Shown here piece by piece: positions 22,200 through 52,806 of a stretch of 64,000 bases of DNA. The DNA comes from Paraburkholderia sp. PGU19 (lineage in GTDB: Bacteria > Pseudomonadota > Gammaproteobacteria > Burkholderiales > Burkholderiaceae): positions 62,001 to 126,000 of the forward strand of contig NZ_AP023179.1 of NCBI RefSeq assembly GCF_013426915.1, in the 5' to 3' direction. The position numbers and the translations under genes were made by a program. The notes beneath the pieces are model-generated. The model searched no databases. It saw nothing but the letters and a program-made list of their open reading frames with translations, and was not told the origin of the DNA. The stretch's first letter is position 1, and each line of letters starts with the position of its first letter.

Positions 22200-22980
22200 G
22201 GCTGGAATCCTGAGGACGGCGGTGTTTGCCGCGCAAGCTGTGTGGTTTGCATGTGTTTTGCGCTGGCATCCGCGATGCGTTAGCTCGCTTCATGCGTCGC
22301 CCCTGTGCGGGGCGGCACCTACTTTTCTTTGCCGCCGCAAAGAAAAGTAGGCAAAAGAAAGCGGCTCACACCGCCAACATTTCTCCCCGCCCGAGGGACC
22401 CCAACCGGTCCCTCACTTCACGCGGCAATCACGTGAACCACGTTCGTTGCCAACGCTCTGAATGAGCGCCTCACCCGCTTCACGCACCCGCGTTGCAGCA
22501 TGCCGCCCCAGATATTCCGCCGCCGCCCAGGTGGCAAACTGTGTGTAGGCCCAAGTGTTCCGCACGCCTCACCCCTCGGACCGACAGTGCACGCGTTCCA
22601 CCCTGTAAGAGCGCTAACCCTGTACGCCGCGACAAGCTACACACAGTTTGCCACCTGGGCGGCATATACCGTTCGCTGCCGCTTGCCTGAGTACGGGGAT
22701 TCGAAGCGGGTGAGGCGTTTATTCGAGGCGTTGGCAACGCACGGGAACAAGGGTGTTTCCGTGTGAAGGGTGGGGACGTTGGGGGCCCGTGGATAAGAAC
22801 AAAAGCTGGCGGTGTGAGCCGCTTTCTTTTGCCTACTTTTCTTTGCGGCGGCAAAGAAAAGTAGGTGCCGCCCCGCACAGGGGCGACGCTTGAAGCGAGC
22901 TAACGCATCGCGGATGCCACCGCAAAACACATGCAAGCCAGACAGCTTGCGCAGCAAACACCGCCCTCCGGATGCCAGCG
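22200..22980 (+). repeat. Large inverted-repeat element, copy P1
   Basis: A non-coding element of about 780 bp. Its two ends (22201-22370 and 22808-22979) are near-perfect inverted copies of about 170 bp. Each end holds a perfect 14-bp hairpin (CTACTTTTCTTTGC with its complement, loop CGCC; 22319-22350 and 22833-22864) and a CGCCCC/GGGGCG hairpin. Inside is a perfect 25-bp inverted repeat (22524-22548 with 22637-22661, core GGTGGCAAACTGTGTG). Copies P2 (43741-44540, inverted) and P3 (50300-52801) share this structure. Short open frames inside it are translations of the hairpins and not genes. Confidence 0.92.
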
Positions 22981-23020
22981 CAAATACAAGAACAAAAAGC
23001 AAAAAAACAAAAGCAAACCG

Positions 23021-23203
23021 CTACACCAGCGCAGGCAGCCCCTCCACCAGCACGACCGCAAACACCACACCCAGCAGCGCACCAAGAACACGTAGTGTGT
23101 TGTGCCTGAACTCAGTTTTGCAGGGCAGCGCGCCCAGGAACAGCGCCCCGGCCAACGCCATCGGAATGACCAGAATGAAATCACCGATCGTGAAGTAGTG
23201 CAT
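23021..23203 (-). CDS. Small two-helix membrane protein
   Basis: A 60-residue protein, MHYFTIGDFILVIPMALAGA onward, with one hydrophobic helix at about 8-27 and another at about 41-56, and a single Cys. AAGGAGA stands seven bases before the ATG at 23203, an excellent ribosome-binding site, which is the main reason to call it a gene despite its size. I do not recognise a family. It ends 41 bp beyond element P1. Confidence 0.65.
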   Translation of the reverse strand: MHYFTIGDFILVIPMALAGALFLGALPCKTEFRHNTLRVLGALLGVVFAVVLVEGLPALV

Positions 23204-23482
23204 GCCTGTCTCCTTTGTGTACTCGTCCGACGCGACTGCATGCGGCGCGCCTGATACCAGTATAGGAGACGCTATCGACGCGTTCGGTGGTCTAAAGCGC
23301 ACGCAGGCGTCTGTCCCTCGCGGCGCACAGCCAGGCCGGACAAGGCTTTGCACCATCATCACGCCGACGCGCGAGATTCCGCGCTGTGCAAACGCCCGCT
23401 TACGCTGACCTTTCTGAATATGCGTTTTGTCAGTGAAAACGTGAGCGGGCGTAGCGTCCGTTGCACGGACGCCGTGTAACGC

Positions 23483-24757
23483 CTACGCCATGCCGACGCG
23501 TTCGCGCGCCCGCAGCCGCGCCGACGCAAGTATGCCGATCACCAGCAATCCGCCGACGAGCGCGGCAACCCCCGTCCACGCATAAGCCGCCCACACCCGC
23601 CCGCCATAAGACCCGACAATGCTCGATCCGAGGTAATACGCGAGCAGATACAGCGCGGCCGCCTGGCCTTTCGCTTCCTTCGCGATTCGGCCGACCCAGC
23701 CGCTTGCGACCGCGTGCCCAGCGAAGAAGCCGAACGTCACGCAGGCAATCCCGCACGCGATCAGCGCAAGCGACTGCGTGACGGTCAACAGCAAACCGCA
23801 CAGCATGATGACGATGCTGCCGATCAGCACGCGCCCGCGCCCGAACGTGTCGGCCATGCGACCCGACCACGGCGACGCGACGACACCCGTCAGATATACG
23901 ACGAAGATCCCGCCGATAGCCGTCTGACTCAGCCCGAACGGCGGCGCAAGCAGGCGGTAGCCGATGTAGTTGTACAGCGTGACGAAGCTGCCCATCAGCA
24001 CGAAGCCCATCAGGAACAGCAGCGGCAAACCGGGCCGTCCGAGATGCTTCACGAGCGCCGTGCGGTGATGCGAGAAGCCAAGTCCGCGGCGCGGGACGAA
24101 GTGGCGCGACGGCGGCAGCAGCGAGCGGAACGCGAGCATCGACAGAATGCCGAGCACGCCGATGGTGCCGATCGCGACGCGCCACGAGAAAAGATCCGCG
24201 ACGACGCCCGTAATCACACGCCCCGCCATCCCGCCGATCGCCGTGCCGCCCACGTACAGGCCCATCGCGAGGCCGAGGCCGTCGGGATGCACTTCCTCCG
24301 CGAGATAGGCCATCGCAACGGCGGGCACGCCGCCGAGCGCCAGCCCTTCGAGCGCGCGCAGCAACAACAGTGCGTGCCATTGCGGCGTGAACGCGACGGC
24401 TAGCGTCAGCAGCGACGATGCGGTGAGCGAAGCCGTCATTAACCGATGGCGGCTCCATCCTTCCGACACGAAGCCCGCGACGAACACGGCGAGCGCGAGC
24501 GCCGCCGTCGTCAGCGACAAGGACAGGCTGCTTTGCGCGGGGCTGACGTCGAATGAGGCGGAGAACGCGGGCAACAGCGGCTGCACGCAATAGAGCAGTG
24601 AGAACGTCGCGTAGCCGGCGAACAGCAGCGCGAGACTGGCGCGCCAGTAGGCGCGCGTGCCGCGCTCAAGATACGGCGCGCCGGTGGAGGAAGCAGAAGA
24701 GGATGAAGCGAAAGACGATGAATCAGCGGGCCGACTCGGGTCCGACGATGCGGTCAC
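23483..24757 (-). CDS. MFS transporter, YnfM/arabinose-efflux-like
   Basis: A 424-residue major facilitator with 12 predicted helices after a Ser/Ala-rich 30-residue N-terminus. PQWHALLLLRALEGLALGGV and the SGRMADTFGRGRVLIG loop (motif A-like, between helices 8 and 9) are typical of drug/sugar proton antiporters. The start is GTG at 24757 with GGGAG upstream. It lies 139 bp downstream of the RND efflux genes on the same strand and may be read with them. The substrate is not predictable. Confidence 0.88.
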   Translation of the reverse strand: MTASSDPSRPADSSSFASSSSASSTGAPYLERGTRAYWRASLALLFAGYATFSLLYCVQPLLPAFSASFDVSPAQSSLSLSLTTAALALAVFVAGFVSEGWSRHRLMTASLTASSLLTLAVAFTPQWHALLLLRALEGLALGGVPAVAMAYLAEEVHPDGLGLAMGLYVGGTAIGGMAGRVITGVVADLFSWRVAIGTIGVLGILSMLAFRSLLPPSRHFVPRRGLGFSHHRTALVKHLGRPGLPLLFLMGFVLMGSFVTLYNYIGYRLLAPPFGLSQTAIGGIFVVYLTGVVASPWSGRMADTFGRGRVLIGSIVIMLCGLLLTVTQSLALIACGIACVTFGFFAGHAVASGWVGRIAKEAKGQAAALYLLAYYLGSSIVGSYGGRVWAAYAWTGVAALVGGLLVIGILASARLRARERVGMA

Positions 24758-24896
24758 AACAAAACTCCCGGAAACGATTGAAACGACGCGGAGACTCGCG
24801 CAGTAAATATGTGCAATAAGCGCGAAGGGTCAACGATACGCCGATTGCGCGTACCACGTCGTCGAATCCGGCAACAGGAAAGGAACGCGGGCCACG

Positions 24897-26402
24897 TCAG
24901 CCACGCGTCGCGCCGGGCGCGCTGGCGGGCTGATCCACGGCATCGGGATGCGTGAGCTGTTCGTCGGTGGGCAACGAGGTCACGTCCCAGCCACCGCCGA
25001 GCGCCTTGATCAGCGCGACGCTCGCGGCCATCCGGCGGCGCGCGATCGAGACCGCCTGGCGCTCGTTGGTGAGCGCCGTCGTCTGCGCGACCACCACGTC
25101 GAGATACGTGATCGCGCCGTTCTTGTAGCGGTTCGACACGATCGCGAGCGAGCGCTGCGCGGCCGAGACGGCGTCGTCCTGCGCTTGCGCTTCCTGTTCG
25201 AGCACGCGCAAGGCCGCGATGTTGTCTTCGACCTGGCCGAACGCCGTCAGCACCGTTTGCCGGTACTGCGCGATGCCTTCGTCGTAGTTCGCCTGCGCTT
25301 CGGCTTTTTTCGCGGCGCGTCCGCCGAAATCGAGCAGCGTGCCGGCGAGCGTCGGACCGAGCGACCAGAAGCGCGCGGGCGCAAGCAGCCAGTCGCTGAA
25401 GTTGGTCGCCTCCAGCCCACCCGTCACCGACAAGATCAGATTCGGAAAATACGCTGCCGTCGCGACGCCGATCTGCGCATTCAGATCGACCATTTGCCGC
25501 TCGGCGGCGGCGATGTCGGGGCGCCGTTCCAGCAGCGTCGACGGCACGCCGACAGGCGCGACGGCGGGCACGGCGACGAGCGGCGCAACAGGCAACGAGA
25601 ACGTCGACGGCGTCTGGCCGGTCAGGATCGCGATCGCGTGTTCGAGTTGCGCGCGCTGCACGCCAAGATCGATCGATTGGGCCTGCGTCGTGCGCAACTG
25701 CGTCTGCGCCTGCGCGACGTCGGCGTCGGTGGCGATGCCGCCTTTGTAGCGGTTCTGCGTAAGTTCGACGGCCTCCTTGTAGGCGGCGATCGTATCGTCG
25801 AGCAGTTGCTTTTCGCGGTCGATGCCCCGCAGTTCGAAATAGTCCGTCGCGAGTTCGGCCTGCATCGACAGCAGCGCGCTTTGTGCATCGGCGGCGCTTG
25901 CCTGTGCGTTCGCGCGCGCGCCTTCGACGCTGCGCGACACGCGGCCCCACAAATCGGGCTCCCACGTCGCGTCGGCGCCGACGATCCAGTCGTTGAGCGT
26001 CTTGCCTGCCGTCGATTTGAACTTCACGTTCTCCGACGACCGTGCACGCGAGTAGCCGCCGCCCGCGGTGACGACGGGGAAGAACTGCGAGCGAAACTGC
26101 TCGACCTGCGCGCGCGCCGCGCGGAAACGCGCCTGGGCGGCCTGCACGTTCTGGTTCGCGCTGGCGACCTGTTGTTCGAGTGCGTTCAGCGCGGGGTCGT
26201 TGTAGACCTCCCACCAGGCGCTGCGGATACGCGCGTCCGCGGGCTCGGCCGGTTTCCAGCCGGTGCCTTCGAGTTCCTTGTAGGTGGTGGCGGTTGTTGC
26301 CGCGGGCCGCTTGTAGTCGGGGCCGACCGTGCACGCGGCAAGGAGACTCGCGCCCACCAGCGCGAAAGCCACCGAACGAAGACGCATGCGATACGTGCTC
26401 AC
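24897..26402 (-). CDS. Outer-membrane efflux lipoprotein, NodT/OprM family
   Basis: A 501-residue TolC-like channel. The N-terminus carries a lipoprotein signal with lipobox LLAAC (Cys about 24), followed by TVGPDYKRP, the standard NodT/OprM mature start. Two OEP repeats follow with long coiled-coil stretches. The GTG at 26402 overlaps the adaptor stop (GTGA); an ATG five codons later is possible. It is the third gene of a permease-adaptor-channel operon. Confidence 0.93.
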   Translation of the reverse strand: MSTYRMRLRSVAFALVGASLLAACTVGPDYKRPAATTATTYKELEGTGWKPAEPADARIRSAWWEVYNDPALNALEQQVASANQNVQAAQARFRAARAQVEQFRSQFFPVVTAGGGYSRARSSENVKFKSTAGKTLNDWIVGADATWEPDLWGRVSRSVEGARANAQASAADAQSALLSMQAELATDYFELRGIDREKQLLDDTIAAYKEAVELTQNRYKGGIATDADVAQAQTQLRTTQAQSIDLGVQRAQLEHAIAILTGQTPSTFSLPVAPLVAVPAVAPVGVPSTLLERRPDIAAAERQMVDLNAQIGVATAAYFPNLILSVTGGLEATNFSDWLLAPARFWSLGPTLAGTLLDFGGRAAKKAEAQANYDEGIAQYRQTVLTAFGQVEDNIAALRVLEQEAQAQDDAVSAAQRSLAIVSNRYKNGAITYLDVVVAQTTALTNERQAVSIARRRMAASVALIKALGGGWDVTSLPTDEQLTHPDAVDQPASAPGATRG

Positions 26403-27676
26403 TCTTGTGCCTTCGCAGGCTGCTCGCCTTGCGGCGAAGACGAGCCGCTAGAGGCGCCGGAAGCGCCAGACGCACCCGCCGCGCCCCCCGCTTTCGGATG
26501 CACGATACGCACCGCCGCGCCATCGACGATCGAATCCTGCGGATTCAGAATCACCTGCTCGTCGCCCGTCAGCCCGGAGGCGATGGCGACGCGCGTGCCG
26601 TAGTCGGTGCCGAGCGCGACCTTGACGAGCTTCACGCGTTGCTGCGCATCGACGGTCGCGACTTTCACGCCGTCCGGACGGAACAGGAACGCGTTACCCG
26701 GCAGCGTGTACGGCGCGGCGGCCTGCGACTTCAGCGCAAAGTGCACCTGCGCATAGGCGCCCGGCAGCAGATCGCCGTTGCGATTGTCGACGTCGACTTC
26801 GACGAGCATCGTGCGCTGCTGTTGATCGACGGCGCCCGACGTGCGCGCGACCGTGCCTGGATAGTGCTTCGCCGGTGTTTCGGTGAGCGTCAGAAACGCG
26901 CTCTGCTGCGCCTTCACTTCCCGCGCGTACGCTTGCGGCACGTTCACGTAGACGCGCAGCCGATCGGCCTGAGCAATGTGGAACAGTTCCTTCGCCGGGC
27001 CGCCCGAGCTGCCCGCATCGATCAACGCGCCGACGTCGACGTTGCGCGCGGTCACGATGCCGTCGAACGGTGCGTAGACCTTCTGGAACGACTGCATCTT
27101 TTCGAGTCGCGCGACGTTGAAACGCGCCGCGTCGAGCGTGCCCTTCTTCGCGAGCATGTCACCGACCTTTTCGTCGGTTTCCTGCTTCGAGACGGAATTG
27201 CTGCGAAGCATCTCCGACCAGCGGTCGGCGGTGCTTTTCGCGAGAGTGTAGGTCGCTTGTGCGTTGGCCAGATCGGCGCTCGCCGCTTTCAACTGGTCGT
27301 CGACTTCGGGCGTGTCGATTTCGGCGAGCAGTTGCCCCGCCTTCACGCGCGCGCCAATATCCGCATACCACTTCTTCACGTAGCCGTTGGTACGCGCGTA
27401 GATCGGCGTATCGAGAAACGCCTGCACGTTGCCGGGCAGCACGAGGTCGAGCGCCGCTGCGGATTTCTGCGGCTTCACCACTTCGACGCTCAGTTGCGCG
27501 GAATGCTGCGCGTCGCGTTCGAGTGCGGCCTGCGCGTCGTGACGCGACCAGATACCCTGCGCAGCGAGCGCCAGCACGACGATCGCCGCGCCGATTACGA
27601 TCCAGCGCGAACGTTTCGATGAGCTGCGCGGGCCTTCCCCGTGCGGCGCGGACTCATCAGGACGATTCCATTCCAT
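26399..27676 (-). CDS. RND efflux periplasmic adaptor (membrane fusion protein)
   Basis: A 425-residue HlyD/AcrA-type protein. An N-terminal membrane anchor spans about 25-42 (WIVIGAAIVVLALAAQGIW). The lipoyl halves are ARTNGYVKKWYADIGARVKAGQLLAEID and PFDGIVTARNVDVGALIDAG, separated by an alpha-helical hairpin. The tail (about 400-425) is Gly/Ala/Ser-rich. It bridges the inner-membrane permease and the outer-membrane channel. It starts 59 bp after the permease stop. Confidence 0.93.
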   Translation of the reverse strand: MEWNRPDESAPHGEGPRSSSKRSRWIVIGAAIVVLALAAQGIWSRHDAQAALERDAQHSAQLSVEVVKPQKSAAALDLVLPGNVQAFLDTPIYARTNGYVKKWYADIGARVKAGQLLAEIDTPEVDDQLKAASADLANAQATYTLAKSTADRWSEMLRSNSVSKQETDEKVGDMLAKKGTLDAARFNVARLEKMQSFQKVYAPFDGIVTARNVDVGALIDAGSSGGPAKELFHIAQADRLRVYVNVPQAYAREVKAQQSAFLTLTETPAKHYPGTVARTSGAVDQQQRTMLVEVDVDNRNGDLLPGAYAQVHFALKSQAAAPYTLPGNAFLFRPDGVKVATVDAQQRVKLVKVALGTDYGTRVAIASGLTGDEQVILNPQDSIVDGAAVRIVHPKAGGAAGASGASGASSGSSSPQGEQPAKAQE

Positions 27677-27735
27677 CGGAACTCCAGATACTGTGCTTGC
27701 GCATCGTTGTTATGACCGTGGCCACGTCGGCCACC

Positions 27736-30700
27736 TTATTGCGGTTTCTGGACGACATGCGCGGCGGCGCGTGCGCGTCGTTCCGACAGCCGTCGATAGA
27801 TCATCGAAAACACCACGGGCACGAACACCAGCGTCGCAATCGTCCCGATGGTCAAACCGCCGATCACCGCGCGCCCGAGCGGTGCGTTCTGTTCGCCGCC
27901 TTCACCGAGGCCGATCGCCATCGGCACCATGCCGATCACCATCGCGAGGGCCGTCATCAGCACGGGACGAAAGCGCGTGAAGCCGGCCTCGATCGCGGCG
28001 CGCGTCGCATCGCCATGTTCGAGCAACTGCTCGCGCGCAAAGCTGACGACGAGAATCGAGTTCGCCGTCGCGATGCCGATACACATGATCGCACCCGTCA
28101 ACGCTGGAATGGACAGCGTGGTATGCGTGAGAAACAGCATCCACACGATGCCCGCCAGCGCGCCCGGCAAACCCGTGATGATGATGAACGGATCGAGCCA
28201 CGACTGGAAGTTCACGACGATCAGCAGATACACCAGCACGATCGCGAACACGAGGCCAGTGAACAAGCCCGAGAACGAGTCGTTCATGGTCTGCACCTGG
28301 CCGCGAAGTTCGATCGACGAGCCTTTCGGCAATTGTGCCTTGGTGTCGGCGATGATCTTCTGGATATCGTCGGAGACGGCGCCGAGATCGCGGCCGTCGG
28401 CGGTGCCGTAGATATCGATCGTGGTTTGCGCGTTGTAGTGCGTGAGCACGGCGTTGCCGGCTTCGCGCCGCATCGTCGACAGCGCGCCGAGAATGTTCGT
28501 GTGGCCGTTCGCGTTCAGCGGAATGTTCGCGAGCGATTGCAGCGAATCGATCGTGTATTGCGGCGCTTCCGTGATCACGTTGTAACTGACGCCATTGCGC
28601 GGATTCAGCCAGAACGTCGGTGTGGTCTGCTGGCTGCCCGACAGCGTGATCAGCAGATTGCTCGCGACGTCGCGCTGCGTGAAGCCCGCCTGTTGCGCGC
28701 GCGTGCGGTCGACGTCGACGAAGATGCGCGGCAGGTCGGACGGCTGCTGGATGCGCGCATCCGCAAAGCCGGGTATCGCGCGCAGTTTGTCGAGCAGCAT
28801 CGCGGCGAACGCACGATTGCCTTGCACGTCGCGCCCCACAATCTGAATGTCGATCGGCGACGGCATGCCGAAGTTCAGCGTCTGACTGACGATATCCGCA
28901 GGCAGGAACGCGAACTGTACGCCGGGGAATTCGTCGGTGAGTGAGCGGCGCAATTTGCGCACGTACTCGGCTGTCGGCTTGTGCTCGGGGTTCAGGCTGA
29001 TCAGGATGTCGGCATCCGACGTGCCGATCGTGCCCGTCGCGCTGTACGACAGGTTGATACCCGATACGGGCAAGCCGATGTTGTCGATGATCGAATGCAG
29101 TTCGTCGCGCGGAATCAGTTCGCGGATGCGCGCATCGACGCGATCGGTGACGACGGCCGTCTCCTCGACGCGCATGCCCGTCTTCGCGCGCAGATGCAGC
29201 GCGATCGTGCCGGCATCGACGGCAGGAAAAAAGTCGCGGCCAAGGAACGGCATCAGCAGCAGCGACAGCAGACAGCATGCGAGAAAGCCCGTCACGAAGA
29301 TGCCGGGCCGCGCGACGCGCGCCACGAGAAACTCGTGATAGCGCCCGCGCACGTTCGCAAAGCCGCGCTCGAACGCCAGGTGCATCCGCATGAACGGGTT
29401 GCGCGTCTCATGTGAATGATGGAAGTCGGCGGGACGATGGTGATGGCGCAGCAGGTACTTCGCGAGCGTTGGCACCAGCGTTCGCGAGAAGAAGTACGAA
29501 GCCAGCATCGCGAACACGACGGCTTCGGCGAGCGGGATGAACAGATAGTGCGCGACGCCCGTCAGCAGGAACATCGGCACGAACACGATACAGATCGACA
29601 GTGTCGAAACCAGGGTTGGAATCGCGATCTGATGCGCGCCGTCGAGAATCGCCTGTTCGAGGTTCTTGCCCTGTTCGAGCTGGTGACTGATGTTCTCGAT
29701 CGCGACCGTCGCGTCGTCGACGAGAATACCGACGGCGAGCGCCAGCCCGCCCAAGGTCATGATGTTGATCGTTTCGCCGAGCGCGGACAGCGCGATGATC
29801 GATGTGATCATCGACAGCGGAATCGACACCGCGATGATCAGCGTCGCGCGCCAGTTGCCGAGGAACAGCAGAATCATCAGGCCCGTCAGGCACGCGGCAA
29901 TCAGCGCTTCGCGCAGCACGCCTTGCACCGATGCGCGCACGAACAGCGACTGGTCCGCGACGGGGTCGATGTTCAGCGACTCGGGCACGAGATTGCGCAG
30001 CGTCGGCATCATGGTCTTGATGCGATCGACGATTTCCAGCGTGGACGTATTGCCGCTTTTGTTGATGGTCAAGAGCGATGCGCGCTGCCCGTCCACCCGC
30101 ACGATGTTGGTTTGCGGCTGATAACCGTCGCGCACATGCGCGACGTCGCGAATATAGACGGTGCCGTTCGGCCCCGATTTGATGGGAATGTTGTTCAGGC
30201 CCGCGAGCGAATCGGGACTCGCGTTCATCTGCACCGAGTATTCCGTCGAACCGATTTTCGCCGTGCCCGTCGGCACGATCAGGTTCTGCGCGGTGATCGA
30301 ATTCACCACATCCATTGGCGACAGATTGCGCTCCTGCAGCTTGCGCGAGTCGATATCGACCATGATCTGACGCTGCTTGCCGCCGTACGGCAGCGGCGCC
30401 GACGCGCCCGGCACGGTCGCGAGCTGCGTCTTCAGGAAGTTATTACCGTAGTCGTACAGCTCCTGCTCGGTGAGCGACGGCGACGACAGCGACAGCCGCA
30501 GGATAGGCACGGTGGATGCGTTGTAGCGCAGTATGTTCGGCGGCGTGATGCCAGGCGGCAGCGAACGCAGCTGCGTTTGCGACAGCGCCGTGACTTGTGC
30601 GAGCGCTTCGTTGATGTTCGCGTGCGGCTGAAAGAAGATCTTGAGGACGGCGATGCCGTTCAGCGAAGTCGATTCGACGTGCTCGATATCGTTCACCGCG

Positions 30701-30918: not shown

Positions 30919-31075
30919 GAACAGGGCGGTCCGGTGAGGGCGGGGCCGCTGCTTCTGGCGACAGCGAGCATGGCGCGACGGCGGCCCGGCCGGGCGTGCG
31001 CGACAGGAATATAGCGCGTATCGTAGCTTACATCGACATTTTTGAGACTGGCGTGCGGTCCGGTTTATGATGAGC

Positions 31076-31566: not shown

Positions 31567-31682
31567 TCGCGGTCTCCTTGCCTGCTGTCGTGATTGACGA
31601 GATGCGGCGCCGCTGAGCGGCCGACGCATCCCGAGTGACACTGGCGCTCGTTTTTGCGCGCGGCACGGCGCACAATGCGGGC

Positions 31683-43002: not shown

Positions 43003-43012
43003 GGCGGGCTCC

Positions 43013-43513: not shown

Positions 43514-43740
43514 GAACTGTCTCCTAGGGGACGCTCTTGTATTGAGCCCCGGGTGGGGTGAGACCGGCTCGGGCCCGATGTTCACTTGCTACCGCCTGCC
43601 TGCTGGGAGGGTCCGGTACGGTTTGGGTGCTTTTTTGCTTTGTTTTTGTTGTTTGTGACGAAAAGTAAAACACAAAAAGCGGGAGGCGGCTATTGGGGGT
43701 CTGTGCCTTCGGCGGTTTTTGGTTTGGTTTTGGTTTTGGT

Positions 43741-44540
43741 TTTTGCTGCGCAAGCTGTCTGGTTTGCATGTGTTTTGCGCTGGCATTCGCGATGCGTTAG
43801 CTCGCTTCAGGTGTTGCCCCTGTGCGGGGCGGTAACCGCTTTGGGTTGTCTGCGACGCTGGGTGGTTTGCTTGTTTTGATGTTGGCATCCGCGATGCGTT
43901 AGCTCGCTTCAGGCGTCGCCCCTGTGCGGGGCGGCACCTACTTTTCTTTGCCGCCGCAAAGAAAAGTAGGCAAAAGAAAGCGGCTCACACCGCCAGCTTT
44001 TGTTCTTATCCACGGGTCCCCAGCGTCCCCTCGCTTCGCACGGTAGCGCGCTTGCACAGGTTCGTTGCCAACGCATCGTTTAAACGCCTCACCCACTTCA
44101 AACACCCGTACATGGGCTCGCGCCAGCGAACGGTTACTGCCGCCCAGGTGGCAAACTGTGTGTAGGTTGTCGCGTCGTATGCGTTAGCGCTCTTACAAGG
44201 TGGTGCGCGTGCGCTATCGGTCTGGAGTGATGCGTGTGGAGCGCTGGGGGCCGACACACAGTTTGCCACCTGGGCGGCGGCGGAATATCTGGCGCGGCAT
44301 GCTGCAACGCGGGTGCGTGAAGCGGGTGAGGCGCTCAGTCAGAGCGTTGGCAACGGACGTGGGTGACGTGATTGCCGTGTGAAGTGAGGGACCGGTTGGG
44401 GTCCCTCAGGCGGGGAGAAATGTTGGCGGTGTGAGCCGCTTTCTTTTGCCTACTTTTCTTTGCGGCGGCAAAGAAAAGTAGGTGCCGCCCCGCACAGGGG
44501 CGACGCGTGAAGCGAGCTAACGCATCGCGGATGCCAGCGA
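43741..44540 (-). repeat. Large inverted-repeat element, copy P2
   Basis: An inverted copy of P1, about 800 bp, between coxS and the amino-acid permease. Its left half matches the right half of P1 (for example CAGCTTTTGTTCTTATCCAC) and vice versa. It has the same 14-bp hairpins (starting near 43938 and 44452), the same 25-bp class inner repeat, and an extra 102-bp unit at its left end (GATGCGTT at 43791 and again at 43893). No gene lies in 43514-44581. Confidence 0.92.
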
Positions 44541-44581
44541 AACCACAAGCAAACCAAACCGGCCGCACCGCGAGACAAGAC

Positions 44582-45979
44582 TTAACGCTCGCCGTGCGCG
44601 AGTTTGGAATGCCTCCGCGAGTACCCAAAATAAACAATCATCCCAACCAGAAGCCAGATCACAAACGCAATCCAGGTAACCTTGCTGAGATTGACCATCA
44701 AGAACAGGCAGGAGGCAACAGCCAGCACAGGCACAATGGGGACGCCAGGGCAGCGGAAAGCCCTGGGCAAATCAGGATGCGTGCGCCGCAGCACGAGCAC
44801 GGCGATGGACACCATCGAAAACGCCGCCAAGGTCCCGATATTGATCAGCTCAGCGAGCACATTCAAAGGCACGAGGGCACCGATCAGCCCAAACACAATC
44901 CCAACGAGCCAGGTCGTGGCAAAAGGCGTAGCAAACCGCGGATGCACCTTAGACAGCGCCGCAGGCAACAACCCATCCCGCGACATCGCAAAGATCACCC
45001 GCGTCTGCCCGTAGGCCATCACAAGAATCACGGTCAGCATCCCAAGCACCGCACCGAGATCGATAAACCCGGCAACCCAGTTCTGCCCAGCAACCTGCAA
45101 CGCATACGAAACCGGATGCGAAATATTCGCGAACTGCGCCGACGGCACGATCCCCGTCACGACGGCGGCGACAGCGACATACAGCACCGCGCAAACGCCC
45201 AGCGACGCAATGATCCCGATCGGCAGGTCGCGCTTCGGGTCCTTCACTTCTTCGGCCGCCGACGACACCGAATCGAACCCGATAAACGCAAAGAACATCA
45301 CAGCCGCCGCGCCGAACACGCCGCCCATCCCGTTCGGCATGAACGGATGCCAGTTCTCGGGCTTCACATGAAACACACCGACGGCAATCACCAGCAACAC
45401 CACGGTCACCTTGATCGCAACCATCAGATTGTTCACGCGCGTCGATTCGCGCACGCCGACAGAGAGCAGCGTCGTGATCGCCATCATCACGAGAAACGCG
45501 GGCAAGTTGAACAGCGTCTCGTGGCCGGGCAGCGCGCCAGGCGCAGCCGTCAGTGCAACGGGCAGCGACACGCCGAAACCCGACAGCAGCGATTGCAGAT
45601 ACCCCGACCAGCCAACCGACACCGCCGAAGTGGCAAGCCCATACTCGAGCATCAAATCCCAGCCGATGATCCACGCGGCCAGCTCGCCGAGCGTCGCGTA
45701 CGAATACGTGTAGATCGAACCGGCGACGGGTATCGTCGAGGCGAATTCCGCATACGCGAGCGCCGCGAAGCCGCACGCGACGGCTGCGATCAGGAATGAC
45801 AGCATCAGTGCCGGGCCGGCCTGCACCGCGCCCGTCCCCGTCAGCACGAAGATGCCGGTGCCGATGATGGCGCCGACGCCGAGAAAGGTCAGATCGAGCG
45901 CGCCGAGCGCTTTCTTCAGGCCGGCAGCCTGCGCGCCGGCGATCATGTGCTCGACGTTCTTTTTGCGAAAGAGGGACAT
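44582..45979 (-). CDS. APC-family amino acid permease
   Basis: A 465-residue transporter with 12 or more helices. GVGAIIGTGIFVLTG near residues 35-49 is the unwound helix 1 substrate site of APC cationic amino-acid transporters, and AFIGFDSVSSAAEEVKDPKR is the family's central motif. It resembles YfnA-type proteins. ATG 45979 follows GGAGACC. The product ends with a short basic tail. The exact substrate cannot be read from sequence. Confidence 0.9.
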   Translation of the reverse strand: MSLFRKKNVEHMIAGAQAAGLKKALGALDLTFLGVGAIIGTGIFVLTGTGAVQAGPALMLSFLIAAVACGFAALAYAEFASTIPVAGSIYTYSYATLGELAAWIIGWDLMLEYGLATSAVSVGWSGYLQSLLSGFGVSLPVALTAAPGALPGHETLFNLPAFLVMMAITTLLSVGVRESTRVNNLMVAIKVTVVLLVIAVGVFHVKPENWHPFMPNGMGGVFGAAAVMFFAFIGFDSVSSAAEEVKDPKRDLPIGIIASLGVCAVLYVAVAAVVTGIVPSAQFANISHPVSYALQVAGQNWVAGFIDLGAVLGMLTVILVMAYGQTRVIFAMSRDGLLPAALSKVHPRFATPFATTWLVGIVFGLIGALVPLNVLAELINIGTLAAFSMVSIAVLVLRRTHPDLPRAFRCPGVPIVPVLAVASCLFLMVNLSKVTWIAFVIWLLVGMIVYFGYSRRHSKLAHGER

Positions 45980-46107
45980 TTGGCGGGGTCTCCAGTAAAG
46001 CACGCGTGTGGCGCGCCCAATGTCGGGAAAACCCGCAATTTTAGCGGAAGTGGGACGGACAGCCCCTCGTGGTGCACAACGGCTGTGCGCCGCGAGCGGC
46101 GCGGCTG

Positions 46108-46764
46108 TCAGCCGGCCATCGCCGGATTCAGGTCGACGAGGCGGTTGCTCATCACATAGAAGGTCAGCTCGGCGTTGTTGCGCAGCTTCATTTTCTCCAG
46201 CAGCCGCGTGCGATAGACGCTCACCGTCTTCACCGACAACGACAGCGCGTTCGCGATATCCGTCAGCCGCTTGCCCGACGCGAGCATGCACAGCGTCTGG
46301 TACTCGCGGTCGGAGAGCTTCTCGTGTGGCAACTGCTCGCCGTCGAACGATACGTAGTCGGCGAGCGCTTCCGCCATCGCCGGGCTCACGTACTTGCGGC
46401 CCGCCGCGACCTGCTGGATCGCGGCGATCATCTGCGTGGCGTCGACGGTCTTCGACAAGTAACCGGCCGCGCCTGCCTTTAGCGCCCGCACCGCATACTG
46501 GTCCTCGCGATACATCGAAAACATCAGCACGGGAGCGCGCGGCAGCTTGCGCTTCAGACGCTTGAGCACCTCGACGCCGTTCATGTCCGGCAGCGAGATA
46601 TCGAGCAGGATCACGTCGTACACGTGCTTCGACGCTTCCATGAGCACCTCGGTACCCGTCTGCGCCTCGGCGACATCGTCGGCGACGCCGCGGTCGATCA
46701 GCAGCTGCCGCACGCCCTGTCGAACGATGGCGTGGTCCTCGGCAATCAGAATGCGCAGGCTCAT
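46108..46764 (-). CDS. NarL/FixJ-family response regulator
   Basis: A 218-residue regulator. The receiver has Glu9-Asp10 and phosphoacceptor Asp55 in ILLDISLPDMNG, and Lys in GYLSKTVDAT. The LuxR-type helix-turn-helix is LTDIANALSLSVKTVSVYRT near residues 168-187. It begins 52 bp after the kinase gene on the same strand, so it is its cognate regulator. It is GacA/UvrY-like in layout. Targets are unknown. Confidence 0.92.
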   Translation of the reverse strand: MSLRILIAEDHAIVRQGVRQLLIDRGVADDVAEAQTGTEVLMEASKHVYDVILLDISLPDMNGVEVLKRLKRKLPRAPVLMFSMYREDQYAVRALKAGAAGYLSKTVDATQMIAAIQQVAAGRKYVSPAMAEALADYVSFDGEQLPHEKLSDREYQTLCMLASGKRLTDIANALSLSVKTVSVYRTRLLEKMKLRNNAELTFYVMSNRLVDLNPAMAG

Positions 46765-46816
46765 AACGGGAAGTCAGTGTTCACAAACAGCAGGTTACAA
46801 GCGGGCCAGAACCGGC

Positions 46817-47716
46817 TCACAAGCGGATCGCGGTGCGTCGCGCGCGCGGCGCATTGCCCAACAAGGCTTTCCATTCGAAGCGCGCATTCACGGTCGTGCC
46901 GCGCGCCTGACCGGCGGACGCAGCGACGCGCAATTCGCCGTCGAACGCGTTGCAGCGCGCGCGCATGCCCGCCAGCCCGAACTGGCGCTCGTCCTGTCCC
47001 GCGTGCGCGGGAATGCCGACGCCGTCGTCGCTGACGACGATGCTCAGATGCTGCGCGGTGGTTTCGATGCGCATGTCGGCGCCCGATGCGCGTGCGTGCT
47101 TGGCGACGTTGTTCAGCGCTTCCTGGGCGACGCGGAACACGGCGAGCGATGCATCAGCGGACAGGCGCGTGAGGCGGGCGTCGGCGGCGCACACGAAGCT
47201 CATGCGCAGGCCGGTACGCGCGGCGAAGCTGTTGGTCCAATGCGACAGCGCGCAGACGATGCCCTTGTCGAGCGTCGGCGAGTGCAGATCGCCGACGGCC
47301 TGTTGCGCCGCTTCAGTAACGGCGTCGAGCGAGCGCTGCGCGGTGGCGAGGGCGGTGGTGCATTGGGGCGGGGCGTCGGCGGGTAGCCAGGTTTCGACGC
47401 CAGCGAGCGCGAAGCGCGCGGCCGTCAATTCGGCGCCGAGGCTGTCGTGCAGTTCCTGCGCGACATGGCGGCGCGTGGCTTCCTGCGTGCGCGTCAGCTC
47501 GGATGCCAGCTCGCGTACCCGCGCTTGCAGACGCGCGAGTTCGTCGCTGGATGCCGTGCGCGCGGTGGTGTCCGCAGTGGCGTCCGCGTTGGCGTGGTTT
47601 GCCATCGCGGCTTTGCTGGAACGGCGGCGGGCAGACGCATTGGATGCGCGTGTGGCATCGCTCGCGCGAGCAGCCGCGCCGTGCACATGCATCGGCACCA
47701 CGATCGACGAATCCAT
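46817..47716 (-). CDS. Soluble HisKA_3-type sensor histidine kinase
   Basis: A 299-residue kinase without any transmembrane segment. The first 55 residues are Ala/Ser/Thr-rich and low in complexity. A coiled coil (about 57-85) leads to the H-box RRHVAQELHDSLGAELTAAR with His90, and the C-terminus has the HATPase N-box QEALNNVAKHARAS and DDGVGIP. This is the NarX/DesK class that pairs with LuxR-type regulators. ATG 47716 is preferred over a GTG at 47728. With no sensor domain visible, the input must come from a partner or the N-terminal tail. Confidence 0.88.
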   Translation of the reverse strand: MDSSIVVPMHVHGAAARASDATRASNASARRRSSKAAMANHANADATADTTARTASSDELARLQARVRELASELTRTQEATRRHVAQELHDSLGAELTAARFALAGVETWLPADAPPQCTTALATAQRSLDAVTEAAQQAVGDLHSPTLDKGIVCALSHWTNSFAARTGLRMSFVCAADARLTRLSADASLAVFRVAQEALNNVAKHARASGADMRIETTAQHLSIVVSDDGVGIPAHAGQDERQFGLAGMRARCNAFDGELRVAASAGQARGTTVNARFEWKALLGNAPRARRTAIRL

Positions 47717-47864
47717 GGCCCTGCTCACGAAACGGACCGGCCGGCGCCACAGCGACGCATCGGCAGCATGTAGACGGAAGAACGCATGCGAACCCTGACC
47801 CCCAGATATGTCCGTCGCAGGAACTATCTCGACGGAAAAACGCTACGTCGGGACGTAACGAAAT

Positions 47865-48061
47865 TTACATTCTGTAACAAATAGAAGACAGTATTGTTAA
47901 AAGTCTGTTAAATGCTGCTGCGCTGGGATCATATCTTAAAAAAAGAAAAAATGCCCGTCCATCTTGGCTTGCAGCGCAAAGTTCACGCAATAGTCGAGGT
48001 AAACGCCATCGCTTGTGTAGGATAAATTCCTACATGCAAGGTTATTCAATAGCCATTGAAT
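47865..48061. promoter_or_regulatory. Three palindromes upstream of the kinase gene
   Basis: TTACATTCTGTAA (47865-47877), TGTAGGATAAATTCCTACA (48016-48034) and ATTCAATAGCCATTGAAT (48044-48061) are perfect or near-perfect inverted repeats in an AT-rich stretch, 150-345 bp upstream of the kinase. The second resembles the GacA box (TGTAAG-N6-CTTACA) in outline but has GG/CC and a 7-bp spacer. The 47717-48230 gap holds no gene. Confidence 0.4.
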
Positions 48062-48144
48062 TTGTAACCTGGTATCTGACGGGATATGGGCACGCCCAGG
48101 CGTGGTCCGCCAACCGCTCGACACAGCCTGGCGTGCCAAAAGAA

Positions 48145-48170
48145 AAACCGGAGCGCGAAGGCTCCGGTTT
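48145..48170 (-). terminator. Terminator of the ferredoxin-NADP reductase gene
   Basis: AAACCGGAGC pairs with GCTCCGGTTT across a 6-nt loop; on the minus strand it runs into TTCTTTTGG after the T-ending stem. It lies 60 bp after the fpr stop. Confidence 0.88.
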
Positions 48171-48230
48171 CGGGTGTTGCGGCCCGCGCACGCGTCGTGG
48201 ACGCGGCGCCAGCGTTGGTGCGGCGCAGTC

Positions 48231-49001
48231 TTAGCCGACGAACGCCTTTTCGACGACGTAGTGGCCAGGATTGTTGTTGCTGCCTTCCTGGAAGCCCAGG
48301 CTGTCGAGCAGTTCACGCGTGTCGCGCAGCATGTGCGGGCTGCCGCAGAGCATCACGCGGTCGTTTTCGAGCGAGAAGTGCGGCAGGTCGAGATCTTCGA
48401 AGAGCTTCTTCGTTTCGATCAGGTCCGTGATGCGGCCACGGTTCGCGAACTGCTCGCGCGTGACGGTCGGGTAGTACACCAGCTTTTCCTGGATCAGCTC
48501 GCCGATGTGCTCGTGCGCCGGCAGGTGGTCCGTGATGTATTCCTTGTATGCCAGTTCGTCGACGAAACGGCAGGTGTGCGTCAGCACCACGCGCTCGTAG
48601 CGGTCATAGACGTCCGGGTCCTTGATGATCGACATGAAGGGCGCGAGGCCCGTGCCCGTCGACAGCAGCCACAGCGTCTTGCCGGGCAGCAGGTTGTCGG
48701 CCATCAGCGTGCCCGTCGGCTTCTTGCCGATCAGGACCTGGTCGCCGACCTTCAGATGCTGGAGGCGCGACGTCAGCGGGCCGTCCTGCACCTTGATGCT
48801 CAGGAATTCGAGGTTTTCTTCGTAGTTGGCGCTAGCCATGCTGTACGCACGGATCAGCGGCTTGCCGTCGACTTCGAGGCCGACCATCGTGAACTGGCCA
48901 TTTTCGAAGCGGAACGACGCGTCGCGCGTGCAGGTGAAGCTGAAAAGCGTATCGGTCCAGTGGTGGACGCTCAGGACGGTTTGTGGATTCAGGTTGCTCA
49001 T
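48231..49001 (-). CDS. fpr: Ferredoxin-NADP reductase
   Basis: A 256-residue flavoenzyme. The FAD site is RAYSMASANYEENLEFLS (Arg-x-Tyr-Ser), the NADP site STGTGLAPFMSIIKD, and CGSPHML near the C-terminus precedes the family's terminal region ending VVEKAFVG. It links NADPH with ferredoxin or flavodoxin in oxidative stress and iron-sulfur metabolism. The length equals bacterial Fpr of subclass I. It is a single gene with its own terminator. Confidence 0.94.
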   Translation of the reverse strand: MSNLNPQTVLSVHHWTDTLFSFTCTRDASFRFENGQFTMVGLEVDGKPLIRAYSMASANYEENLEFLSIKVQDGPLTSRLQHLKVGDQVLIGKKPTGTLMADNLLPGKTLWLLSTGTGLAPFMSIIKDPDVYDRYERVVLTHTCRFVDELAYKEYITDHLPAHEHIGELIQEKLVYYPTVTREQFANRGRITDLIETKKLFEDLDLPHFSLENDRVMLCGSPHMLRDTRELLDSLGFQEGSNNNPGHYVVEKAFVG

Positions 49002-49522
49002 GGCTTCTTCGATGGTGCGAAATCAAGGTCGGCCACATAAAAGCGGGGCCGGCACGGCAAAGGCAATGCACCGTCCCGCGCCGGAAGCGACCCGGGAATG
49101 ATGCGCAATCCGCTATTTTACCGCGTTCCGCGCCGGGCATTGCCGCGGCGGGTTGGGCGGTGAATGTGGTCTGTCAAGCTGGTTATCAAGCGCCGGCGCG
49201 GCTGTCGTCCGGTTTCGCCGGAACGGCTAACTGCGGCGCGGCATGGGTGTACTGCTGGGGTGTGCGGCGCTGGGTCTGTGCCCGGTCGACCCTACGAGGA
49301 CCCGTGCGGGTGTCGCCCTTCGGGTCTTGCCCGTTCGCGGCGGGCGTCGGGCCGTTGCCGCCTGACCGGCTCTCGCCCGTCAATCATCGGGTGATGGCAG
49401 CCGTTCAACGAACACAGGCGCTGGTAGGCGCTATTTCGGGATAATACCGGAAACCTATCGCGCGCTGCAGCATTGACCCTTCTCGCGAAGCTGGAAAACT
49501 TCGACGGAAACGGCCCCAGCGC
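49002..49522. other. Intergenic region with serial GC hairpins
   Basis: No gene is supported. Between about 49290 and 49350 short hairpins follow one another (ACCCGTGCGGGT, GCCCTTCGGGTC, TTGCCCGTTCGCGGCGGGC). They might be a terminator set or part of a small RNA, but no promoter or U-tract is clear. The fpr promoter must lie in 49002-49150. Confidence 0.3.
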
Positions 49523-50164
49523 TCAGCTTTCGGCGGCGAGTTTCGCACCTAAGCCGACGAGCAGCGCGCCGCACACGCCGTCGATCGGCCGGCGCAGGCG
49601 TCGATAGCCGCGTTGCGTGCGCTCCGTCGCGAACATCAGCGCGACGCTGCCGTACCAGCCCACCGACATCATCCCGATCATCGCGAGCGCCACGCCGTAG
49701 AACCACAGCGGCGGGTGCGCCGGAAACAGTGTCGCAAAGATACTGGTCCAGAACGCGCAGGATTTCGGATTCGTCAGACACGTGAGCATGCCCGTGCGCC
49801 ATGCGCGGAAATGCGCGCCGCGGTCGTTGGCGGGCGGCGTTTCGACGTTCACGACGATGGCTTCGCCGCGTTTCGTGCTCGAACGCACGAGCTTGATGCC
49901 GAACCACACCAGATAGATCGCGCCCGCGATGCGAATGCCGTTGTACAGCCAGTCAATCCGTTGCAGCACGGTCGCGAAGCCGAGCATGGCGAGCGACGCC
50001 CAGATCGTCGACCCTGTGCCGACGCCCAGCGCCGACGCCGCGCCCAGCCTGCGTCGTCCGGCCAGCGAGAGCTGCGTGATCATAAAGAAGTTGGGACCGG
50101 GACTGACCAGCGCGATCAGATAGACGAGGGCGATTTGCAGCAGGATCGGCAGATAGTGGTGCAT
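49523..50164 (-). CDS. LysE/RhtB-family amino acid exporter
   Basis: A 213-residue membrane protein with six predicted helices. ALVSPGPNFFMITQLSLAGR near the N-terminus is the LysE/RhtB signature, and LTNPKSCAFWTSIF is the second family motif. ATG 50164 is used since it opens helix 1 (LPILLQIALVYLIALVSPG). It lies beside element P3. The amino acid exported is not predictable. Confidence 0.9.
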   Translation of the reverse strand: MHHYLPILLQIALVYLIALVSPGPNFFMITQLSLAGRRRLGAASALGVGTGSTIWASLAMLGFATVLQRIDWLYNGIRIAGAIYLVWFGIKLVRSSTKRGEAIVVNVETPPANDRGAHFRAWRTGMLTCLTNPKSCAFWTSIFATLFPAHPPLWFYGVALAMIGMMSVGWYGSVALMFATERTQRGYRRLRRPIDGVCGALLVGLGAKLAAES

Positions 50165-50705
50165 GGGATGCGTGGCGACGATTTGCCGCGCTTGGCGGCG
50201 ACGCGTTGAACAGGAAGCGGGCGGAATCGCGATCTTACTCCGGCTTGCAACGGGTAACTGCGCGACACGCCCTGCGTCGCCTGTGTGCTTGTCTTTGTTC
50301 TGGCATCCGGAGGATGGTGTTTGCTGCGCAAGCTGTGTGGTTTGCATGTGTTTTGCGCTGGCATCCGCGATGCGTTAGCGTGCTTCACGCGTCGCCCCTG
50401 TGCGGGGCGGCACCTACTTTTCTTTGCCGCCGCAAAGATAAGTAGGCAAAAGAAAGCGGCTCACACCGCCAACATTTCTCCCCGCCTGAGGGCCCCCAAC
50501 CGGTCCCTCACTTCACACGGCAATCACGTCACCCACGTCCGTTGCCAACGCTCGAATTGAGCGCCTCACCCGCTTCACGCACCCGGGTTGCAGCATGCCG
50601 CACCGGATATTCCGCCGCCACCCAGGTGGCAAACTGTGTGTAGGCCCAAGTGCTCCGCACGCCTCACTTCGGACCAATAGCGCACGCGTTCCACCCTGTA
50701 AGAAC

Positions 50706-52172
50706 CAGCCCTTTCAAGGTCTTGATCAAGATGTCCCGCCTTTGGCGCGTTTAAGCAGGCGAGCGGTACTGTGATGGGCGCGGGCTACCGCACCTTCGAC
50801 ATAGGGTGCGGGTTTGCGGGTCTTGGGGCCACGCGTGCGTGTGCGCACCTGAATCGGGTCGACGCAGCGGGCCAGCTCGAGCAGTTTGCCGGCAATCACG
50901 TCGGGCGTGGCATCGCTCCAGTGCGACCATTCATTTGGCGGCAGCGCGATGAGCATGCCCTCATACTGGCTGCGAATCTGCACGGCGAGGTAGTACGTCG
51001 AGACGTCCGGCGGCGCTGCACCTGTTTCATCGGCGGCAGCATGCGCAGCTTCAACACTGCGCTTGAGCGTGGCCAGCACGTTGTACGCCAGCACCGCGAC
51101 GGTAAAGCCCAGCAGCGCGGCACGTGGATGACCCAAGGTGCGGATCTCGCTGTGCAGGACCGACTCGAGTCGCTGGAACATGCCCTCGATACGCCAGCGC
51201 TTGCGGTACAGCCGGGCAATCTCGTGTGCGCCCACCGCGGCAGGCAGGTTGCTCCACAACAGAATCACGGTATCGCCTGCATCAGTCGGCTTGTCCAGCG
51301 TCAGCTCGATGCGACGCCAGACGAAGCCAGCCTTCAGGTCAATGCGTTGCTCTCGCACCTGACCTGTCTCGATACGTGCACCGTCCACCCATGGCCCACT
51401 GCTGGCAAGCGCCGGGCTGTTGCGGCCGTGTTCGCGCACGATGAAGCAGGCCTGTGCCTGATGCCAGCCCTGCAGGATGGTCCCGGTGCAGAAGTTCCGG
51501 TCAGCCAGCCACAATTCGCCCGCGCCGGCACATTCAATCAGCGGGGCCATGGCCGAGCGCTCCTGCGCGTGCGCATCCTCGATGGCGACCAGATCTGTGA
51601 CCAGACCCAGATCCGGCTCGTAGACCACCAGCGCGTGCCCCGGCAACGCCGCGCCACGCTGCTCGCGCAACGCCGCCAGCCGTTTCTCACTGGCCGGCAG
51701 GTGATTGCCATCAAGCACCCGCACACGCCAGCCGGGCAGGCTGGGCTGGCATGGCAACGCCGCCAGCACCGGCCCCAGACGCTGTGCGCTGCCCTGTACC
51801 AGGGCACGCAGGATCGCGGGTTCGGTACGGTTGACCTTCTCGTAGAACGCGGCCAGCGACACCGGCAGGGGCTTCGTCTGTGTCGCTGCAGCGTGCAGCG
51901 ACGGACTCAGTCCCAGCGACACCAGCGTCATCAGTTCAACCACCGTCGAGAACAGCAATTCACGTGGATATTGCCGCTGCCGGTGCTCGGCGAACACCCC
52001 GTCGATCCATTGCGGCGCGATGGCTCTCTGCAGTGCCAGGCGTGCCATCACGCATACCGGTGCCTGCTGCTCGAAACGCTTCATCACCTCGTCGAACATC
52101 CCTTCGTACCCGTCGTTCCTTAACATCTCGCCAGGTTACTAGGTTTGCAGCGCAAAGACCTTGAAAGGGCTG
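50706..52172 (-). mobile_element. IS4-family insertion sequence, complete, 1467 bp
   Basis: Perfect 18-bp terminal inverted repeats, CAGCCCTTTCAAGGTCTT, are at 50706-50723 and 52155-52172. An 11-bp direct repeat CCTGTAAGAAC flanks it (50695-50705 and 52173-52183), which fits IS4-family target duplications. The uninterrupted target is visible in P1 near 22600 (CCCTGTAAGAGCGC). It encodes one full-length transposase, so it could be active. Confidence 0.95.
50726..52126 (-). CDS. IS4-family transposase
   Basis: A 466-residue DDE transposase. The catalytic residues are likely Asp139 in VLDGNHLP, Asp209 in LADRNFCTG and Glu314 in YRKRWRIEGMF; Tyr307, Arg310 and Glu314 form the YREK-type signature, with the final Lys replaced by Glu321. 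The start at 52126 lies 46 bp inside the right end; an internal ATG at 52099 is possible. Length and layout are intact. Confidence 0.93.
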   Translation of the reverse strand: MLRNDGYEGMFDEVMKRFEQQAPVCVMARLALQRAIAPQWIDGVFAEHRQRQYPRELLFSTVVELMTLVSLGLSPSLHAAATQTKPLPVSLAAFYEKVNRTEPAILRALVQGSAQRLGPVLAALPCQPSLPGWRVRVLDGNHLPASEKRLAALREQRGAALPGHALVVYEPDLGLVTDLVAIEDAHAQERSAMAPLIECAGAGELWLADRNFCTGTILQGWHQAQACFIVREHGRNSPALASSGPWVDGARIETGQVREQRIDLKAGFVWRRIELTLDKPTDAGDTVILLWSNLPAAVGAHEIARLYRKRWRIEGMFQRLESVLHSEIRTLGHPRAALLGFTVAVLAYNVLATLKRSVEAAHAAADETGAAPPDVSTYYLAVQIRSQYEGMLIALPPNEWSHWSDATPDVIAGKLLELARCVDPIQVRTRTRGPKTRKPAPYVEGAVARAHHSTARLLKRAKGGTS

Positions 52173-52436
52173 CCTGTAAGAACGCTAACCTGTACGCGCC
52201 GCGACAACCTACACACAGTTTGCCACCTGGGCGGCAGTAACCGTTCGCTGGCGCGAGCCCATGTACGGGTGTTTGAAGTGGGTGAGGCGTTTAAACGATG
52301 CGTTGGCAACGAACCTGTGCAAGCGCGCTACTGTGCGAAGCGAGGGGACGCTGGGGGCCCGTGGATAAGAACAAAAGCTGGCGGTGTGAGCCGCTTTCTT
52401 TTGCCTCCTTTTCTTTGCGGCGGCAAAGAAAAGTAG

Positions 52437-52806
52437 GTGCCGCCCCGCACAGGGGCGACGCCTGAAGCGAGCTAACGCATCGCGGATGCCAGCATCAAAG
52501 CAAGCAAACCACCCAGCGTCGCAGACAACCCAAAGCGGGTGCCGCCCCGCACAGGGGCGACGCATGAAGCGAGCTAACGAAACGCGGATGCCAACATCAA
52601 AACAAGCAAACCACCCAGCGTCGCAGACAACCCAAAGCGGGTGCCGCCCCGCACAGGGGCGACGCGTGAAGCGAGCTAACGAAACGCGGATGCCATCATC
52701 AAAACAAGCAAACCACCCAGCGTCGCAGACAACCCAAAGCGCTTACCGCCCCACACACTGGCGACGCGTGAACCGAGCTAACGCATCGCGGATGCCAGCG
52801 AAAGCA
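52437..52806. repeat. 102-bp tandem repeat at the right end of P3
   Basis: Units start at 52437, 52539, 52641 and 52743, exactly 102 bp apart; the last is partial (about 60 bp) and diverged. Each opens with GTGCCGCCCCGCACAGGGGC, runs through GAAGCGAGCTAACG and ends CAGACAACCCAAAGCG. Two such units are in P2 and one in P1. Confidence 0.93.

Follow-up and report, generated by a model that had tools for sequence, protein, structure and literature searches.

The Element and Its Three Copies in the Window

The 64,000-nucleotide stretch of Paraburkholderia sp. PGU19 analyzed here (assembly GCF_013426915.1, contig NZ_AP023179.1, positions 62,001 to 126,000; hereafter the window, in which all positions without a contig prefix are counted) holds three copies, P1, P2, and P3, of one non-coding near-palindrome with a conserved unit of about 658 bp, as defined by a profile built from 46 copies. 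They belong to a genome-wide family that is under strong concerted evolution by short-tract exchange of sequence among its members. The 11.2-Mb genome of this soil bacterium, which contains the window, is denoted G000, and other G-numbers denote further genomes. A preceding sequence-only reading had located three copies near these positions with P2 inverted, which the profile matches bore out, and was right in describing a polar, palindromic, non-coding, genome-wide family; its 780-bp unit was too long, the conserved unit being surrounded by a T/G-rich collar without defined length.

From the outside inwards, each arm consists of the T/G-rich collar, an end unit opening with GCTGGCATCCGCG, the hairpins H1 and H2, a variable stretch, and an inner inverted repeat, the two inner arms being separated by an asymmetric 88-nt loop at the center. 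By eye, H1 reads GCCCC-TGTGC-GGGGC and is preceded by CGTC. P1 (22262..22919, forward strand) is recognized by the 658-bp profile with an nhmmer score of 721 bits and by its inverted repeats. Its outer arms form terminal inverted repeats of 192 nt that are 91% complementary, so the inverted ends had been correctly perceived but underestimated at about 170 bp. Inverted-repeat analysis places H2, with a perfect 15-bp stem and a 4-nt loop, at 22318..22351 in the left arm and at 22832..22865 in the right arm, and the 27-bp arms of the inner inverted repeat at 22522..22548 and 22637..22663, all on the forward strand. As a single strand, P1 folds with a calculated energy of -471 kcal/mol, against a mean of -255 kcal/mol in 20 shuffles (standard deviation, sd, 5.3), and thus the palindrome is not a chance product.

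P2 lies in inverted orientation at 43882..44538 (reverse strand, nhmmer 712 bits), has a perfect inner repeat of about 25 bp by eye, and is adjoined by an extra partial end unit at 43738..43832, which is 93% identical to the P1 end over 95 bp. P3 is split by an insertion sequence (IS) of the IS4 family in its loop. Its left part reaches as far as the loop (50357..50704, forward strand, profile positions 1-348), the insertion occupies 50706..52172 with an 11-bp duplication, CCTGTAAGAAC, at both sides (ends and duplication read from the sequence), and the right part follows at 52173..52493 (forward strand, profile positions 339-658). Three tandem end units adjoin P3 at 52532..52803 (52532-52626, 52634-52728, and 52746-52803). 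The spans first proposed for P2 and P3 were accordingly approximate. By eye, P3 carries one mismatch in each 34-nt hairpin and its inner repeat is also mismatched; thus, the perfect 14-bp hairpin announced for every arm holds in P1, with a stem of 15 bp, and fails in P3, just as the perfect 25-bp inner repeat holds in P1 and P2 but not in P3.

The claim that the elements encode no protein stands: our own codon-score gene caller found no gene inside them except the transposase in P3 (50726-52126, reverse strand; NCBIfam IS4, 143 bits against a cut-off of 115), and Rfam gave no match at the gathering score in the window. This sole transposase is foreign to the element, because it is of the IS4 family, is bounded by the 11-bp duplication, and also occurs in other copies and elsewhere, so the copies are not degraded transposons with a transposase relative of their own. 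Conservation per column across 101 copies is highest in H1/H2 (96-99%) and in the right inner arm (97%), most other stretches being at 83-93%.

Copy Number, Placement, and Flanks

The expectation that the family would be abundant was confirmed, and the copies are far from unique to the window. An inner-arm pattern, allowing up to three mismatches, matched 135 times in forward and 133 times in reverse orientation in G000, against 0 and 1 matches of the reversed control, which corresponds to about 135 copies in the genome. A catalogue of 111 copies, found in both orientations on contigs C1-C3, was used for the counts of gene context, with genes called by the codon-score caller. Between convergent genes lie 51 copies, 47 are in tandem and 6 in divergent contexts, and 7 had no assignable context. 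Neighboring genes within the window, with the pairs around the three element sites counted in, form 6 convergent, 36 tandem, and 7 divergent pairs. Elements are never spanned by a called gene, although a few called genes overlap an edge, by at most 47 bp. Neighboring gene 3' ends are a median of 96 bp away from an element (n = 149) and 5' ends 223 bp (n = 59).

The collar, taken as 60 bp outside each end and read inwards, is composed of 6% A, 19% C, 36% G, and 39% T (146 flanks), whereas control gene ends (n = 52) have 18% A, 30% C, 30% G, and 22% T. Since this skew is equal in flanks facing gene 3' ends (104) and 5' ends (40), it belongs to the element, and an origin as a transcription effect was ruled out on the same grounds. 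Tandem TTTTGC was seen in 7 of the 146 flanks of G000. Hexanucleotide repeats TTTTGC/GCAAAA also flank the element of P. caribensis 852011 at the site corresponding to C1:1783297 (L268, about 3,000-3,700), where their number varies between strains.

Exchange of Sequence among Copies

Copies of one genome resemble each other more than the copy occupying the same site in a more distant species. Mean identity within a genome is 84.7% in G000 (101 copies), 87.6% in G020 (9 copies), and 80.4% in G059 (3 copies, mutually 78-83% alike), and it falls to 73.4% between G000 and either G020 or G059, despite the P2 site being occupied in both G000 and G020. At the same site, G059 is only 74% (P1) and 73% (P2) identical to G000, and 72% identical to G058 at P3. 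In the closest relative, G058, the same-site copy is still the nearest one (91.6% for P1 between G000 and G058, the next value being 91.5% for P1 and P2 of G000).

Linkage between variants fades within 40-80 bp. Among 112 common variant sites without gaps nearby, the squared correlation (r2) in G000 drops from 0.27 for sites 1 bp apart to 0.042 at distances of 21-40 bp and to 0.013-0.016 past 80 bp, close to the value of about 0.010 for unlinked sites. Similarly, it declines from 0.24 to 0.037 in G001 (37 copies, 137 sites; about 0.027 expected if unlinked), and one clonal simulation gave 0.31-0.41 at every distance. The comparison of ten sites between two P. caribensis strains points in the same direction. 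Identity is 88.7-97.9% for nine of the elements, and the tenth (E) aligns best when inverted (91.7%), whereas the flanks of the ten sites are 98.2-99.7% identical, except for two right flanks (D3 and E; 0.73), where an insertion splits one copy. Mismatches between the strains are grouped in patches within the elements, and for 328 of the 413 differences at the nine sites both alleles are present in other copies, against an expectation of 18% for new mutations.

Exchange also involves the two arms. In 34 cases the two mirror positions of the arms both vary (13.7 expected), and in 26 of these 34 their alleles are the same (15.3 expected; none of 2000 draws was as high), but mirror positions are not linked within one copy (r2 0.027), which implies exchange between copies in both relative orientations. 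Moreover, identity is slightly raised among copies less than 100 kb apart, at 85.4% against 84.7%, a value that 4 of 1000 permutations reached. The copies thus form a recombining pool, with exchange of short stretches that includes left against right arms, and the copies of each genome evolve together.

Two pairs of G000 copies are near-identical, at 98.8% and 97.6%. Of these pairs (C2:2268825 with C2:2278361, and C2:1735143 with C1:3694089), one consists of copies about 10 kb apart in opposite orientation and the other of copies on different replicons; they are perhaps recent conversions of the whole element.

Stability of Positions

Many element positions are common to strains and species. 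In the syntenic region of G058, G069, and G059, the P1, P2, and P3 sites are all occupied; G001 has P1, with an IS inside, and P2, its P3 site being empty; G020 has P2 only; G005 has none of the three; and in G021 the P1 site is empty and a piece is found at P2, where the contig ends. Gene identity to G000 over 16 genes is 90.9% for G059, 91.0% for G020, 90.1% for G005, and 89.8% for G021. Since G059 has all three sites in common with the G000 group, the unrooted tree calls for several losses or for gains that recurred. P. caribensis MWAP64 and 852011 both carry an element at 12 of 12 aligned sites, and hence there is no insertion polymorphism among these sites; at one, MWAP64 retains about half an element beside an insertion of about 7.4 kb. 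No target duplication was visible by eye at empty and filled P1 and P3 sites, where the flanks have diverged.

Judged from these sequences, the element does not look like an active transposon, and the suggestion of a non-autonomous mobile element is not supported as a description of current activity, given sites common to strains and species and no visible target duplication. The element may be an old, now quiet family of mobile origin.

Insertion Sequences Landing in the Elements

Twenty insertions were found in 19 of the 111 catalogued elements, several at identical points. IS30-family elements lie at the base of H2 in five copies and elsewhere in one, and IS5-family elements adjoin this IS30 point at the H2 base in two. 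An unclassified 1.45-kb IS occupies the H2 apex in four copies, IS4 an identical loop point in three and another position in one, and an unclassified IS one mirrored point in two; one IS110-family and one unclassified insertion complete the set. In the cases tested, elements that host the same IS share 83-90% identity, whereas the IS copies are more than 99% alike (92.5-100% for the IS30 set), so the insertions are independent. The genome holds eight IS4 copies, one of them broken, and five are in or at the edge of an element; the two IS4 copies on C4 have no element beside them. This repeated landing agrees with published targeting of repetitive extragenic palindromes (REPs) by IS, the IS4 and IS110 families included (PMC1525189).

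At C3:655132-660801 of G000, a half element starts precisely at the loop point used by IS4; an IS4 copy adjoins it and an IS4 end fragment lies about 4 kb off, an apparent IS-linked rearrangement. In G001, the right H2 hairpin of P1 (L123, from about 2911) is interrupted by a different IS-like sequence.

Occurrence in Other Genomes

Of 40 genomes searched with the arm pattern at no more than one mismatch, 3 gave matches, all three belonging to the same genus, with forward and reverse counts of 128/129 in G000 itself, 164/161 in G001, and 95/107 in G020. The zeros in 21 same-genus and 16 other genomes, drafts among them, are no proof of absence, because the draft contig G021:C214 breaks off within an element that occupies the P2 site, and because the pattern overlooks divergent families, for example the one in G059, a genome outside the 40; calling presence or absence in this way was abandoned for these reasons. 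Short-read draft genomes may therefore break at the family and conceal it.

Matches were found in 19 plasmid records and in no phage record. Three P. caribensis, two P. largidicola, and one Paraburkholderia sp. 22B1P plasmid records contain at least 39-40 match places each, both strands counted, those of P. phymatum and P. terrae have partial or few matches, and three Caballeronia and seven Burkholderia records have end pieces. A longer arm pattern retrieved 58 stretches, 53 in Paraburkholderia sp. Tr-20389 and five in Burkholderia sp. Ac-20365, from a set from which the genomes nearest G000 may be excluded. The H1 pattern occurred in 3 of 260 genomes of the order, only 8 of the 260 being from the same family. 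In the one element examined of Caballeronia sp. NK8 (pNK81, L264 3001-3532), H1/H2 are kept and the interior has no match to the G000 family, yet it is 79% palindromic over 622 bp.

Possible Role at Transcript Ends and Rival Explanations

The reading of the family as about 135 non-coding near-palindromes at gene 3' ends, with stable sites, exchanging sequences, and a cis role at transcript ends, is one that, taken whole, could equally well prove right or wrong. Ectopic homologous recombination or gene conversion would drive the exchange, with stalled replication or breaks at an extruded hairpin as its probable trigger. The copies might in turn be held in place by acting as two-sided terminators or insulators, their hairpins, near U-rich runs on both strands, possibly limiting read-through, above all between convergent genes. 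Location and a scan of P1, which gave nine terminator-like sites against 1.9 expected, suggest such a two-sided role, which on all the evidence stands at about even odds; the proposed transcription insulator agrees with the location at gene 3' ends and meets mixed results in sequence tests. By eye, a canonical terminator is present at the empty P1 sites of G020, G021, and G005 and at the empty P2 site of G005, which suggested that the element replaces a terminator; the genome-wide terminator count is opposite to this idea, which was dropped.

Several observations weigh against the proposed role and its mechanism. The empty P3 sites of G001, G020, and G005 lack a canonical terminator by eye. 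Canonical terminators lie between gene and element in 12 of 118 cases and at 4 of 129 control gene ends, being commoner beside elements at all five thresholds, and with a stricter score the consensus has only one weak terminator per strand. In 101 copies, left and right arms pair at 79.4% of positions against 79.25% in shuffles (sd 0.075, highest 79.45%), with 493 double-change cells against 476 (sd 24), slid versions being far lower (35-43% paired). Since pairing is hardly above shuffles, a folded RNA of the whole element is not selected pair by pair, and arm-to-arm RNA selection was rejected; an RNAalifold consensus was weak and remained unused. Moreover, individual sites have been lost or are missing in some relatives, which makes none of the copies look essential. 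Finally, SbcCD cleaves a 246-bp interrupted palindrome in E. coli, and homologous recombination repairs the cut (PMC6061781), but the model for SbcD, the usual palindrome nuclease (TIGR00619), exceeded its cut-off in only one of ten Paraburkholderia genomes (G059), with weak SbcD matches in the other nine (G000, G001, G005, G014, G020, G021, G022, G058, and G069; SbcC was not searched). SbcCD as the trigger is therefore doubtful, conversion driven by it is weakened as an explanation, and the exchange may require a different trigger. If the genus truly lacks SbcCD, it may tolerate long palindromes and let them survive. An undescribed genome-wide cis system, in which selection fixes large palindromes at gene ends as two-sided insulators, and in which they stay alike and palindromic through unusually frequent short-tract exchange involving all copies and arms and are perhaps tolerated because SbcCD seems to be lacking in most of these bacteria, is a doubtful extension.

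Alternatively, and as a tentative but serious possibility, the elements may be neutral or selfish leftovers of an old non-autonomous family, now immobile, alike only via recombination and without host function, which lie behind genes since insertions elsewhere were selected against. All position and exchange data fit this explanation without any function, as do the variable occupancy among relatives, the terminator test contrary to a replacing role, and the breakage of 19 of 111 copies by IS. However, leftovers would not readily account for the higher conservation of H1/H2 (96-99% per column, against 83-93% in most other columns of the 101 copies), for the recurrence of H1/H2 in Caballeronia with a different interior, or for the strong excess between convergent genes.

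Continued mobilization in trans, by a putative transposase that prefers sites behind genes, is rather improbable. Inverted ends, high copy number, both orientations, and the two pairs of copies 98.8% and 97.6% identical would suit a miniature inverted-repeat transposable element (MITE) of this kind. Nevertheless, the two P. caribensis strains have 12 of 12 aligned sites in common, empty and filled sites show no target duplication, though in diverged flanks, the ends are ill-defined and bear tandem end units as well as a collar of skewed composition, and no same-ended element with an inner transposase appeared in the loci read, no dedicated search having been made. Still less probable is an oversized REP, or REPIN (a hairpin-forming pair of REPs), dispersed by a REP-associated tyrosine (Y1) transposase (RAYT): palindromic, extragenic, many-copy, IS-targeted sequences, a CGTC before H1 that by our own reading resembles CGTC-tagged REPs, and PF01797 over cut-off in 58 of 58 genus genomes are offset by an element far larger than a REPIN, by the weakness of the genus-wide PF01797 match (24-32 bits) and its presence where the arm pattern gave 0 (the few-contig G011, G014, and G022), and by the lack of any profile match with E ≤ 1 within 4.2-4.4 kb of that gene at four of four loci, two strong Y1 genes of G000 being outside this set. 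Neither the PF01797 survey nor the flanks of the four loci support mobilization by RAYT.

Comparison with Known Systems

No description of the element was found in the literature searched by words or sequence strings, a scope outside which most subscription journals fell; the sequence strings retrieved one unrelated paper, and two P. terrae/hospita genome papers use "palindromic repeats" in the CRISPR sense only. For bacterial dispersed palindromes it is an old question whether they persist by mobility, function, or gene conversion, and this family makes the question testable through its stable positions, its high copy number, and an exchange that is visible between strains with 1-2% flank divergence. 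The family is also a natural readout of the tract length of ectopic exchange, and some 50 convergent gene pairs suit insulation tests.

MITEs are non-coding elements with inverted ends and high copy number, features that are shared here, but the present element has no visible target duplication, its ends are fuzzy, and its sites are common to strains. With the REPIN-RAYT system (PMC3116915), it shares an inverted pair of end modules, the lack of coding capacity, and dispersal in one genome; it is about ten times longer, has positions common to species, and does not lie beside the genus-wide RAYT-like gene at the four loci, and on the tests made it is not a member of that system.

A further likeness is to REPs and the bacterial interspersed mosaic elements (BIMEs) that they form, whose GTAG- and CGTC-tagged families are described as palindromic, extragenic sequences near gene 3' ends between convergent or unidirectional genes (PMC3733652). 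The present element is likewise palindromic, extragenic, many-copy, located at convergent and tandem pairs near 3' ends, and a target of IS. However, at about 658 bp it is far from the 20-40 bp given there for a REP, and it differs further in the nested hairpins of each arm, in its inner arms and loop, and in the short-tract exchange measured here. Higgins et al. reportedly proposed in 1988 that REPs evolve by gene conversion. Both cases would concern extragenic palindromes kept similar by conversion, the difference being that direct sequence evidence is provided here by linkage decay, same-site comparison of strains, and sharing of alleles between arms. The family is thus a real, abundant, and largely position-stable family of palindromes, which is like REPs and BIMEs in location and IS targeting, though not in size.

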